DNA of 64,000 nt from Isoetes taiwanensis (Eukaryota; Streptophyta; Lycopodiopsida; Isoetales; Isoetaceae): the NCBI GenBank assembly GCA_021234155.1, contig JAJEKV010000017.1, forward strand, positions 425,467 to 489,466, read 5' to 3'. The first letter of the stretch is position 1. Every line of letters starts with the position of its first letter. Positions 8,968 through 30,169 of this stretch are shown here, one piece after another. The position numbers were made by a program, and so were the translations under genes. The notes beneath the pieces are model-generated. The model was given only the letters and a program-made list of their open reading frames with translations. It made no database searches and was not told the DNA's origin.

Positions 8968-11485
8968 TATATAGAGAGCCATGACAAGGTACAAAGACGA
9001 TCCTAAGACCCAAACAATTCCCAAGCTATGGCATTCAGCTTCGACCAGATAACCGTGCTGCACCAAACTTATCTAAGCCACATGTTATAGTGGAAGAGTC
9101 TTATAGATAATAATGTCGGGATTAACTAGATTATGCAAACTTCATTTAAGCCATGCATTCGTATCATTTGTACATCAACTTATATCTCTAATCAAAATGT
9201 ATTTACCTTATGAGGAAACATTTACCACATAAGTCCGTAATATAATTCTCCAAGCAATAGATAGACCTTGTTTCTACAAGCAATAGATAGTTGGACGCCA
9301 ATAATGCCAATAAGCAGCAAAACAAGCATTTCCGCACACGCATTTCAATGGTTTGTTTCTTAGGAGTTTATAACTTCATTTTGTTTTGCGCTCCTATTAT
9401 GCAAAACACCATTATGCAATCATGGATATTTTAAGACGCACCATAGATTAAAATAAAGGAAAGTACCGTTATCATTAAAATATGTATGTTTTTAGTCATG
9501 GTTGCGCCAATATCACAAAACTTCATCAAAGTACTTCAAGCAACCAAAGCATGCGGCTAAAACAATGGAAGATAGACTCAAGCTATATGAGGCATGAATT
9601 TCTCCTCAATGAGTTCAGCACGCAGCCTGATGTCACATTTGTGGCATTTGAGTTTAGGGTAACGAGTAGAAAACCCTGAATAGCTTAAAAAGAAGTTTCA
9701 TCATGATGCTTAATGTTTTTCTTAACACATAGAAAATCCCCAACCATACCTAACTTGCTTCTTATGCACTCCTTTAGTACTTCAAACTATTAAAAACTTG
9801 AGAGTAGGTAGAGATGATCGGTTACTGCGGCAAGAGAACGAGGAGCAAGTTAGCCTTAAAAGTGGTAAAATCTTTAGCTACCAGCGTGGTAAGCAAAATC
9901 ATCCGGCTTATCTTCCCTTCAGCCACACAACATGATGACATTATCAAAACATAAGCTAAGATGTAAATGGGAATAAATAACGAAACTTTATGCGAGAACA
10001 AGTAGCTTGTGCATGATAGCGATAGAAGATAGAGGTATTTCCTTGGCATTGATCAAACCCTCGTAAAAATTATGTCAAGAGCTTGTTGATACAACAATTA
10101 AACAAATATATCTACACAGGTAAAATGGTAAAATCCAAGTGATGTATGGATATGCGTATTTTCTACTTCCCCATGGAGATGCTATAATAAACAACTAAAT
10201 TAGATCGGGACCTGATTAAGTGGCACTCCGTCATCATCGATTAGATCTTCAATGTTATTGGAGTCCGATGGATCTTGCAGGCTGGTGTAGTAATACTAGG
10301 AGCTTTACCATGATTTGCTATCATGCAAGCTCCAATACTCAGGAAGCGGAGGCGTTTCCGGATTATTCCTCTTTTGTAGCAAAGATATCTATGCCGCCTT
10401 TTCTTGCCATTTCCTCCAACTCGATTTTTCATAATCGCCTCCATCATGTTTACATTCAATCCCTTTCTCCTTAAGCAAGGCCACAATGTCAGCCTTTGTT
10501 GGCTTCACATTTGCGGAACCCTGGCCTAGTCATTGTTTCCGACCCTTGTTAGGGGCACTTAAGTCTACGTGCTCTGTCGCGACCGTTCTCCGATGCTCGC
10601 GGGGAGTTTCAACTAAAGCCACTCCTCGTATTTCTAATCCCTAAGCTTATCAAGCAGTCCATTGACCATTTTACCAAAAACATCTGAATCAGTCATTTCA
10701 ATTTGTAATAGCGAGTGGCTAGAAGGGTCTACACAATATATCTGTTTGATTGAAATGGGATATTAGTAATGTAAATCGCCAAAGATCTTACCTTAGTGCA
10801 TAATACCATGAGAATACACCGTCGCTTTTTAAATTTGGTGTGCATCCCACAGCTCGCGTGATGATAGTACTCCATAGCTGGTATCTAGTCTGGACCGGCG
10901 AACCCTAAGCTAAAATTTTAGGTTAATCCGTTACATCCGTCATAGTATTTCGTGAGGATACGTGCCTATACGGTCAAGTATATACTTAACCCATGAGATA
11001 TCATAATAATTTTCACCTACCCCATGTATTTCCGCTAAAGGTAATGATGCCCTTATGCTTACGGGCTAAGTTAACACGTTACCATTCTTGTTATCATCAC
11101 CATAGTTTACGGGGGAAATTATTAAATTGTTTTAAGGCCATACTACTCAAATGGGATGCTCACTTCCTAGGCATAATTAAATCACAACGAGCGTTATGGT
11201 AACCTTGTTGTCTAAATAAAAGTTAGTTTTGCTCTCGCCAATGTTGTTCAAGCTATAAACCTTTCATATTCAAAGCTATGCATGGGGACAAAGGATTATA
11301 CTATTATTGCAAATAAGGCAATAAAAGATCCCCACGACACTATGTAAACACCATGGTGTTCCCATTTAGAATCAAAAGTCGATATTAGCAGAGATCACGA
11401 AAGTGGTGCACAACCTTTAGAAATAGTATGATAAAAGCCGATGCCAGCCTTGGGATATAGATATATATGTATATATATATATATA
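8968..11485 (-). repeat. Retroelement 1, left long direct repeat
   Basis: Aligns along its whole length with 15,741-18,282. Differences are mostly 1-3 base indels or substitutions centred on CAG or CTG in the other copy (for example TCATCAGTTAG versus TCATCGATTAG). Its SAP-like ORF is broken by these changes, whereas the right copy is open. Confidence 0.85.
10200..10900 (-). pseudogene. Broken copy of the SAP/HeH-like ORF
   Basis: Corresponds to the open ORF at 16,980-17,663 in the other repeat. Several single-base indels, most at CAG/CTG sites, scatter the reading over three frames. Only pieces such as the RKRLRFLSIGACMI-like stretch and the IECKHDG-type coding region can be followed. The breaks may be consensus errors rather than true decay. 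Confidence 0.6.
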
Positions 11486-11547
11486 AATTGCCTACCTCCT
11501 ACCGAAATGAAGTAGGGCCCATTATGTAATGTATATAGGGATTTGGA

Positions 11548-11571
11548 GGGTCCCTATATACATAGGGACCC
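11548..11571. promoter_or_regulatory. Hairpin at the 3' end of the RT region, element 1
   Basis: Perfect inverted repeat with arms GGGTCCCTAT and ATAGGGACCC around a 4-base loop, 60-85 bases inside the inner boundary of the left repeat. Retroelement 2 has a related hairpin in the same place (22,155-22,204), so it is probably an RNA or DNA structure used by the element. Confidence 0.6.
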
Positions 11572-11656
11572 ACTCCATAACCTATGAAGTCATGTTAAAT
11601 ACTCTTTGTTTCATACCCTCCAATGAAAAAGTGATCAAACATGTGCTAAAGAAGTC

Positions 11657-28389: not shown

Positions 28390-28720
28390 TTAATCAAACC
28401 TGATTGGGTCAGATCTCCTCATCGATTTTTCTTCATTAGATATATCCTCAATAGACGGGGGCACATGGATAATGTTGGAAGGCTCAACATCTTTGCCAAC
28501 ATTGCTCTGACTTTGAATCCGTGATGCCATAAATTTCTTGATGCCACTATCTCCGGTATCTCTGTTGGGATCAATCCCATTAATCCTGCATAATTCTAGC
28601 AATTGTGCCTTGGTAGGTCGCACACTTTGGGATGCTCAATCCCTCTTCTCCTAAGAATTTCTATAAGCTTATGTCCGTGTGCCCTTTGTTTTGAAGCCCT
28701 CTCAAGCGTCCGACCATGCT
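28390..28720 (-). pseudogene. Broken copy of the SAP/HeH-like ORF, element 2 right repeat
   Basis: PTKAQLLELCRINGID and the IIHVPPSIEDISNEEKS tail are intact, but the N-terminal MAGRPEG part and the PNQ end are out of frame through small changes near CAG/CTG relative to 20,407-20,724. Confidence 0.6.
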
Positions 28721-30054
28721 AATCTGAAAAAATGCAGACATTCAAACACTCGGCATGCCTTATCCTTTCGGCCAGTGATTAAGCTAAGCTAATATCATGT
28801 TTGCCATTATTAAATATGTATAAAGCTAGTTGATTAAGATGTATATTCAACAAATACAAAGATCGAAATAACAAGCACCGAGAAAACCGAGAAAAAGCCA
28901 TTATGAAATTCCAATTAAGGGTAAGACGATACGGGTCTTTGAGGCGCCCATCATTCCGCTATCCACTATCGAGGTCGAGGTCGTGTCGTAAGGAAAGTTA
29001 GGGTTCACGACCATTCGCCAAATATCCAGGTGCCCTAATATTTTAGTAATATATCCCGCCATATTGTTAAGAAGATAATCACTTATTGCTAAGTTATATT
29101 AAAAAATTGAACTTAGGTCCAACAAAATTTGCTTAGCCAAATTTGGATATGTCAATAGGGCATGCCTTATGAGGGGTGTATTTTACCCATATATGCGTGT
29201 TAGCTTCAACAACTATTCATTTTAAGCCCAACAATAAGGCACTTCACCTAACCATCAAGTCAAGCACATACAGGAGGAACAACTTCCCCATTTATACCTA
29301 ATGGAACAAACGATAGTTAACAAAATGTAAACCAAAATGTCAACCAATATCCATAAGTGTCAATGAACATATTAAAAACAGAATTCCATAGCCTTGACAT
29401 CATACAATAAATTTAATGTCTCTCGATGCCTAGTATGTCACTTTGTCATTAAAAATTCAATGCAAGAATGCATCAATACTATGCATCATTAATGTTATAC
29501 CACAAACAAGTAATAAAGCAATTAGGTTGAATAAAGTCAATGGTGTGACCATACCAATATACATTTGGGCAAATCACATTAACCACACATGATCTTTGGA
29601 TATTTAGTGGCTAGGTAGAGACAATAACAAGCACAAAAGACCACTATGGATAGGAGCAAAACCGGACATGAATAAGCATAGGCATCGGTGATAAGTTAGC
29701 TAGACTATTTCCAAGTTTACATTTATGCGATTATAAGAATTTAGGACCGAGGGGGATCAAAATGCCTATAGAGATGCTTTGTCAAATACACAACATAGAG
29801 ATCATATTGTCGACAAATATAGCATAATCAAAGGTAATCAATACAAGGTTATTACAGTTCAGGGGATAGGATCATGCCAATTTCCAAAGTACCAAAATAG
29901 CTATAAGATTAACATAAGGGGATCGGGGTGAGAATCAAATGGTTTAGGTAGTGGCAGAAACCTGGAAGAGCCAGAACAATTTATAAACACAAAGGAAACA
30001 AAAGAATTGTACTAAAAGGAACAAGGAGCTGCACTAAAGAGCAGCCAATGCCAC

Positions 30055-30169
30055 ATATATATATATATATATATATATATATATATATATATATATATAT
30101 ATATATATATATATATATATATATATATATATATATATATATATATATATATATATATATATATATATA
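30055..30169. repeat. (AT)n microsatellite at outer end of element 2
   Basis: About 115 bases of AT dinucleotides followed by a short AC run. Marks the outer border of the element. Confidence 0.95.

Follow-up and report, generated by a model that had tools for sequence, protein, structure and literature searches.

A probable endonuclease-less Penelope-like retroelement family of Isoetes taiwanensis with gene-bearing multi-kilobase repeats and a conserved RNA fold at its insertion ends

The window analyzed here, a 64-kb stretch of the Isoetes taiwanensis genome (C985:425467-489466; host assembly, 1.66 Gb), contains two adjoining minus-strand retroelements, A (8967-18282) and B (18275-30169), which belong to a large, probably recently active family. 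We read them as endonuclease-less elements akin to Penelope-like elements (PLEs) whose RNA would present (TA)n DNA ends with a short template, with reverse transcription starting internally, and put the probability of this reading at about 0.65. Their layout and the positions of their ends can be observed directly in the copies, and it is the ends that carry the argument: nearly all 3' ends lie at one position, a TATATAT within an RNA fold, J5, that spans the junction between 5' repeat and body. That the elements stop where a conserved fold displays a TATATAT matching their TA-repeat target suggests that the RNA helps choose the landing site.

Each element has a body of ~4.2 kb, comprising open reading frame 1 (ORF1) and a reverse transcriptase (RT) region, between two direct repeats (R). 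Self-BLAST of the window delimited repeats of 2.5 kb in A (8967-11485 and 15740-18282; 90.8% identical) and 3.9 kb in B (18275-22126 and 26273-30128; 95.2% identical). A preliminary description of the window, made from the sequence alone, had proposed two abutting elements with long direct repeats, a shared strand, and a shared gene order, all of which was borne out, and had called the A and B repeats largely unrelated; self-BLAST indeed found only ~118 bp common to the two, at 78.8% identity. The 15-bp inner-border motif that it ascribed to both elements, GCCTACCTCCTACCG, occurs at 11490-11504 in A and 22127-22141 in B and has 74 matches in the genome versus 3 for a backwards-read control pattern. 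The conserved ORF1 (A, 13969-15588, 539 amino acids [aa]; B, 24561-26147, 528 aa; 39% identical) and the TA ends were likewise confirmed. The 3' end of A lies on a TA run, the B 3' repeat begins with (TA)37 at 22053-22126 and adjoins A at the TA run 18275-18282, and the B 5' repeat, as a whole 26273-30169, terminates on the outside in a TA run (30055-30169).

The genome-wide search with ORF1 and RT that the preliminary description had recommended recovered a large family with shared borders. Its counts are lower bounds, 123 of 3170 (RT) and 80 of 3532 (ORF1) first-look candidates having been scored. There are at least 123 scored RT matches, 82 of them with frames of at least 690 aa, which, less the 7 in which stops were read through, leaves at least 75 open, and at least 81 ORF1 match rows. 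An RT match lies downstream on the same strand within 6 kb in 56 of the 79 ORF1 rows entered (the two left out are further pieces of the ORF1 in C1025), 47 of these being 1.34 to 1.48 kb away. The R-ORF1-RT-R layout with TA-rich outer ends was found at three more loci read across, in contigs C1025 (repeats of 2.57 kb, 98.0% identical; ORF1 broken), C1108 (2.64 kb, 95.9%), and C1033 (3.79 kb, 96.7%). Unrelated segmental duplications around ordinary retroelement remnants, named beforehand as an outcome that would overturn the proposal, are compatible with long direct repeats taken alone; since the layout is repeated at these three loci and the borders in further elements, the repeats are intrinsic and we give that explanation practically no credence.

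The end positions were mapped with a J5-spanning query from C383, in which TATATAT occupies positions 161-167. Among 40 scored matches, seven cover positions 1-321 and represent internal junctions, five stop exactly at 167, the last T of TATATAT, and one starts at 93; the remaining 27 are divergent, partial matches spanning 167. The five stops are the 3' ends of the elements in C383, C42, C1018, C914, and C812, every one of which (5/5) runs into a TA run of 14 to 146 nt and then into other DNA. The 3' ends of A, B, C1025, and C1033 fall at the same TATATAT, B continuing into A; in all, this is the 3' end in 9 of the 10 elements examined. With a query for J3 (the structured element before the 3' repeat) and the start of R, the outer 5' ends were placed in the TA run that follows immediately on the J3 G-rich tract (tract end, position 140), at 144 in C1018, C914, and C812 and at 156-157 in C1069 and C383. 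Five 5' ends were fetched: the TA runs there measure 50 to 90 nt in C1018, C914, and C812 and 12 nt in C383, and there is none in the truncated C42. As background, 2 of 161 host pieces contain a TA run of at least 12 nt, a threshold that the element's own TA run can satisfy at the 5' end. Because the ends lie inside TA tracts, a target-site duplication is not visible. The flanks of the TA tracts recur, the 5' one being approximately ACAACCACTTG(TA)n and the 3' one (TA)nCAAG (window 30170-30200; loci L066 and L068; L061, L064, and the C1033 3' flank L043), so that some targets resemble the center of a palindromic repeat and could extrude a cruciform.

Three covarying RNA structures, J5, J3, and JR, are new here. 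J5 lies at 15692-15887 in A, with the unpaired TATATAT at 15740-15746, and at 26228-26397 in B, with the junction TATATATA at 26273-26280. Across 12 sequences, 93.4% of cells were paired versus 84.3% in shuffles, two-sided changes affected 24 of 45 pairs versus 14.4, and covariation was 0.416 versus 0.246, values reached in 0 of 500 shuffles each; slid controls were 31 to 48% paired. The closing helix is CTATAAG.. with ..CTTATGG in most copies and GGTTTCCAAGGTTCC with GGACCTTGGAAACC (P1) in B and, judged by eye, is changed differently again in L059, a locus outside the alignment. TATATAT at the junction is invariant and unpaired in the consensus fold. Bit scores were mostly 139 to 171 at internal junctions (B, 94.6; L001, 90.1; the divergent L059, 42.9) and 45 to 77 at the five outer 3' ends, which have no body half; in this scoring the A6 rows are not independent of the model, and the window overlaps with L045 and L042 with L046.

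J3 occupies 11482-11612 in A and 22119-22245 in B, with CGGTAGGAGGTAGGC at 11490-11504 and 22127-22141, respectively (cmsearch R2, 110 and 84 bits, both elements being part of the model), and it too is supported by covariation. J3 lies directly before the 3' repeat, and its structure S2 had 86.2% paired cells versus 77.4%, two-sided changes in 16 of 23 pairs versus 8.1, and covariation of 0.348 versus 0.196, with all five measures at 0/500. The a-b hairpin, S1, is less supported than S2 (82.1 versus 78.3 in shuffles) and competes with it, so that a two-state switch is possible. The 3' end of J3 is the nearly invariant CGGNAGGAGGTAGG (27 of 38 border sequences used); RNAalifold on a mixed alignment returned only 8 pairs with little covariation. 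The third structure, JR, lies within the repeat and surrounds the exon 2 acceptor CAG/GTAAC (the slash marks the splice site): at 16570-16700 in A, around CAG/GTAACC and with covariation in related copies, and at 26960-27089 in the B 5' repeat, with a second copy in the 3' repeat (18966-19095). Its 13 sequences were 92.2% paired versus 77.3%, with covariation of 0.498 versus 0.215 and all five measures at 0/500, and its invariant strand UUACCUG has letters of the 5' end of U1 small nuclear RNA. S1, S2, and JR were drawn by hand from the sequences tested, and none of J5, J3, and JR had a match at the Rfam gathering score. Further JR hairpins, at L040:6026-6155 and L044:7312-7441 beside the C1025 and C1033 elements, apparently belong to other family members, indicating that family copies cluster.

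How the copies are arranged bears on the mechanism. C1034 has three RTs, at intervals of 7467 and 7435 bp; the stretch from the first to the second was read as RT end, J3, one R, a divergent J5, and ORF1, so that a single R is common to two bodies. Judged by spacing only, C1064:5955854-5982916 has seven J3 copies at intervals of 4468 to 4498 bp and C963:17280513-17289587 three at 4469 to 4470 bp. In C56 (loci L001 and L002), the one such array whose copies were read, an internally deleted copy retains J5, ORF1 residues 7-107, RT residues 620-699, J3, and R; 4.7 kb from it lies another copy (L002), 5' truncated within the body and matching it at 99.2% over 2.4 kb, the two forming a partial tandem. 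The short copies in regular arrays (C56, C1064, C963, and C1037) are apparently nonautonomous; in C1037:8114701-8115596, J5 copies lie 0.73 kb apart. The C42 array is 5' truncated inside J5, with TA on its 3' side and no TA on its 5' side. Hence two hallmarks of PLEs are present: a pseudo-long terminal repeat (pLTR) layout with complete or partial tandems sharing repeats (A, B, the three further loci, C1034, and C56) and 5' truncation with a constant 3' end (L002 and C42, beside the nine 3' ends at TATATAT).

The repeats are, in addition, homogenized within copies, clearly so in C1108, where they differ by 3.7% from each other, by ~27% from the A 5' repeat (A5) and those of C1025, and by 34% from the error-rich A 3' repeat (A3). 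A tree of the repeats joined the C1108 pair with a support of 1.0 and the C1025 pair with 0.859, and the bodies of A and C1108 are 82.7% identical. The C1108 repeats being close to each other and far from the others, transposition copied one of them from its partner or made both from a common template; A and C1025 are too similar for such a conclusion. Such per-copy homogenization would also be expected of a noncanonical long terminal repeat (LTR) element, in which J5 would stand at the position of the primer-binding site and the J3 G-rich tract (GGTAGGAGGTAGG) at that of the polypurine tract, immediately before the 3' repeat, the repeats being true LTRs made by two strand transfers. The positions match an LTR layout, but we consider this origin improbable: no RNase H or integrase was matched in Pfam, the ends are TA runs and thus lack the TG...CA termini of LTRs, and the regular array of seven J3 copies, the single R between two bodies, and the 5'-truncated copies with a fixed 3' end are PLE-like and count against an LTR mechanism. 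The near-constant array periods (4.47 to 4.50 kb) are what one would expect of a circular DNA or RNA intermediate consisting of one R and one body, integrating by recombination at TA tracts in the manner of DIRS or Crypton elements. One circle leaves one R, however, not two, truncation is one-sided (5'), and the ORFs scanned gave no tyrosine recombinase match, so that this route appears very improbable.

An internal, target-primed start at J5 accounts jointly for the fixed 3' end, the variable 5' end, the TA targets, the homogenized repeats, the arrays, and the truncations, and the end positions, taken by themselves, fit reverse transcription beginning near the pLTR/body junction. The template would be unspliced RNA in which the J5 fold, requiring R followed by body, leaves UAUAUAU unpaired, and it is with this heptamer that a DNA 3' end within a (TA)n tract (at a nick, a break, or an extruded cruciform) would pair; no endonuclease having been found, that end must come from elsewhere. 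RT would then copy R toward its 5' start, proceed through J3 and the body belonging to a second R-body unit, cross J5, and copy R again. Since J5 requires a body downstream of R, the template would have to be a tandem transcript or else a single transcript, entered at its 5' repeat/body junction and left at the RNA 5' end by a jump to the 3' repeat. Synthesis that stops, as it normally would, in the TA run with which R begins would leave R-body-R; longer synthesis would yield arrays, and an early stop 5' truncation. More tentatively, and at somewhat less than even odds, J5 may be a telomerase-RNA-like domain whose unpaired UAUAUAU is a built-in template selecting (TA)n ends in an endonuclease-free manner, with giant repeats that provide a shared N-terminal exon spliced to three products.

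Several observations weigh against this scheme. The C1108 3' end leaves J5 ~40 nt before TATATAT, and the junction in B reads TATATATACCCC versus TATATATTC in the other copies. TA on the 5' side is less constant: B, C1033, C1018, C914, and C812 have long tracts and C1025 an interrupted one, and in C383 and C1108 the tract does not exceed the TA run of the element itself. The pair-type count of J5, one of the five measures, did not exceed the shuffles (185/500); the shuffles ignore relatedness, and the J5, J3, and JR structures were derived from the sequences tested, so that the tests are strong, not independent. Both the priming and the splicing are predictions from sequence. The proposed kinship of the RT with PLEs draws on motif resemblance and a weak RVT_1 match below the cutoff, and the RT profile matched no RT in PDB. 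An Rfam scan of 8700-30400 with E values up to 5 gave 12 matches, all below the gathering score, and no hammerhead ribozyme. Finally, the border TA could stem from microhomology or later repeat growth instead of J5 templating. Along these lines, PLE-like insertion at (TA)n might proceed by end microhomology alone, with J5, J3, and JR serving in RNA binding, packaging, or splicing control; TA runs do occur on either border of R, a predicted splice acceptor lies within JR, and the internally deleted C56 copy has kept J5 as well as J3, which may therefore be cis signals of some sort. Unlike the templated start at J5, microhomology alone does not explain why 3' ends occupy one exact position in an RNA fold spanning the border while 5' ends vary, and we regard it as unlikely, if the most serious of the alternatives.

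The repeat would be the source of the promoter, exon 1, and the 3' terminal exon. In the A 5' repeat (15740-18282), exon 1 of the repeat-borne gene (16992-17318; MTRPEGSANVKPTKADI..., ending LNQ/GT) and exon 2 (16352-16600; VTGIISTYSQV..., then a stop) are putatively joined by splicing; the gene is frame-broken in the A 3' repeat. In B, exon 1 is open in the 3' repeat (20407-20724), and its copy in the 5' repeat (28400-28717) has no open frame of more than 60 aa. Exon 1 ends ...NQ/GT in phase 0, and exon 2 (VTGI.STY...C.KC...AELIE..FLS) is similar in A, C1108, and C1033 and not in B. The preliminary label of this ORF, SAP/HeH-like, is not supported, neither domain having been matched in Pfam at E values up to 5; the ORF itself is conserved nonetheless. 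ORF1 opens after (C/T)AG/GARG in 12 of 12 loci (AG/GARG being required by the search pattern itself), with predicted acceptors CAG/GAAGG at 15586/15585 in A and TTTTAG/GATTGT at 26148/26147 in B. The RT frame opens at CAG, with nothing conserved upstream, in 26 of 29 RT loci (the acceptor was not printed for L028, L029, and L035); the search pattern required Gln at the RT border, and this Gln is nearly invariant in the alignment too. At its other end the RT exon terminates in AG/GTAT or AG/GTAC, in phase 2, in 26 of 30 loci (not printed for L009, L026, L029, and L038). In A the RT coding region (11657-13775) is interrupted (ORFs 11657-12631, 12624-13139, and 13323-13775), with a predicted acceptor CAG/GGC at 13755/13754 and donor AG/GTATGT at 11681/11680; that of B (22273-24260) is frame-broken, as seen from a 173-aa ORF (22273-22794) and from reading the sequence. 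Economically read, a single exon 1 would be spliced, via conserved phase 0 acceptors, to one of three partners, namely, exon 2 in R, ORF1, or RT; the stop codon of the RT exon would lie in the 3' repeat, since its phase 2 end joined to the R acceptor CAG/GTAACC gives an Arg codon plus TAA.

The RT had a weak Pfam match to RVT_1 (best E value, 3.6e-5, under the curated cutoff), and its motifs DKA for DKG, RYIDD, and K.HK suggest PLE kinship. ORF1 had no Pfam match. Scanning the RT and ORF1 ORFs against Pfam gave no integrase, RNase H, protease, tyrosine recombinase, or GIY-YIG, in agreement with the body lacking integrase and GIY-YIG as initially described. Searches of RT, ORF1, and the repeat gene against Pfam, NCBIfam, and PHROGs returned only weak RVT_1, group II RT, and unrelated matches; in PDB, the RT hit one RT chain at an E value of 0.16 by single sequence and none by profile, and ORF1 had no meaningful relative. 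No relative was confirmed in viral contigs, prokaryote genomes, or phages. The host genome does hold 121 GIY-YIG matches. In the two neighborhoods read, GIY-YIG lies downstream of helicase-like ORFs, clearly at L058 and in pieces at L057, and these loci are probably Helitron-type elements.

To our knowledge, both the priming of reverse transcription in endonuclease-less PLEs and the relationship of PLEs to telomerase are open questions. The Isoetes family offers a testable case, with many intact copies, a conserved RNA fold over the exact insert end, and a target matching the unpaired bases; it has PLE-type repeats enlarged to 2.5 to 3.9 kb, with a gene of their own and three structured RNA elements. 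If the templating reading is true, it is more than a variant of known PLEs. The likeness to telomerase RNA and TERT would lie, by analogy, in a short unpaired template within a structured RNA that matches the extended DNA end; unlike in telomerase, the template would serve to initiate the copying of a long element RNA instead of repeat addition. Chlamys and Naiad PLEs, said to have been described by Craig in 2021, reportedly share with the Isoetes family the green lineage and microsatellite targets and differ by an N-terminal GIY-YIG. The telomere repeat TTTAGGG has 402 matches in the host genome versus 0 for the control, and the rbcL of the host looks streptophyte-type. Rotifer endonuclease-minus PLEs are telomere linked according to the parts of the reports consulted (PMC3846280, PMC10088271); the Isoetes ends read lie mostly on TA tracts. 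Endonuclease-minus PLEs are on record for Selaginella and conifers in the excerpts consulted (PMC9033089), and as described there such elements (including Athena and Coprina) resemble the Isoetes family in having an RT without GIY-YIG, repeats, and a green-lineage occurrence; they differ from it in the 2.5- to 3.9-kb gene-bearing repeats, the conserved ORF1, and J5, J3, and JR of the latter.

Canonical Penelope/Poseidon elements share repeated flanks and tandem copies. Frangieh et al. 2024 (PMC11167929) reported that the RT of the Anolis element PAc begins inside the RNA, close to the pLTR/ORF junction, as predicted for the Isoetes family, and at a site that is not homologous to the cut DNA; the predicted Isoetes start, in contrast, matches the target DNA. 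PAc also has a GIY-YIG endonuclease and a hammerhead ribozyme (PMC11167929), neither of which was found in the elements scanned here. The Penelope of Adineta vaga, going by the excerpt of PMC3846280, has pLTRs, partial tandems, 5' truncation, and an intron, to which the predicted splicing in the Isoetes family would correspond; its pLTRs measure ~180 to 220 bp versus 2500 to 3900 bp. Among the titles and abstract openings listed in literature searches, none mentioned gene-bearing multikilobase pLTRs or a templating RNA fold in PLEs; we do not claim their absence from print. The preliminary reading as PLE-like is thus upheld in its architecture (shared-R tandems, 5' truncation, a fixed 3' end, homogenized repeats, and RT plus ORF1 without another enzyme domain). 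To call it an undescribed system was too strong as to kind, since endonuclease-minus PLEs of Selaginella and conifers and an internal RT start in an Anolis PLE had already been reported.

Differences between the two A repeats are unevenly placed: 161 of 655 positions within 3 nt of a CWG differ, versus 138 of 1888 elsewhere. Their piling up at CTG/CAG sites has the look of base-calling error, so that ages and broken frames in the window should not be taken literally; repeat divergence is probably overstated, and the frame breaks in the B RT are perhaps partly of this kind. CTG and CAG are also rarer than composition predicts at window positions 1-4000, 8000-12000, 22000-24000, 28000-36000, and 54000-58000, stretches that take in the outer one of the two A repeats and the outer half of repeat B, and this depletion looks like long-read base-calling error at CWG sites. 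Elsewhere in the window, ORFs at 37351-39350 and 55973-57078 resemble parts of other transposable elements.

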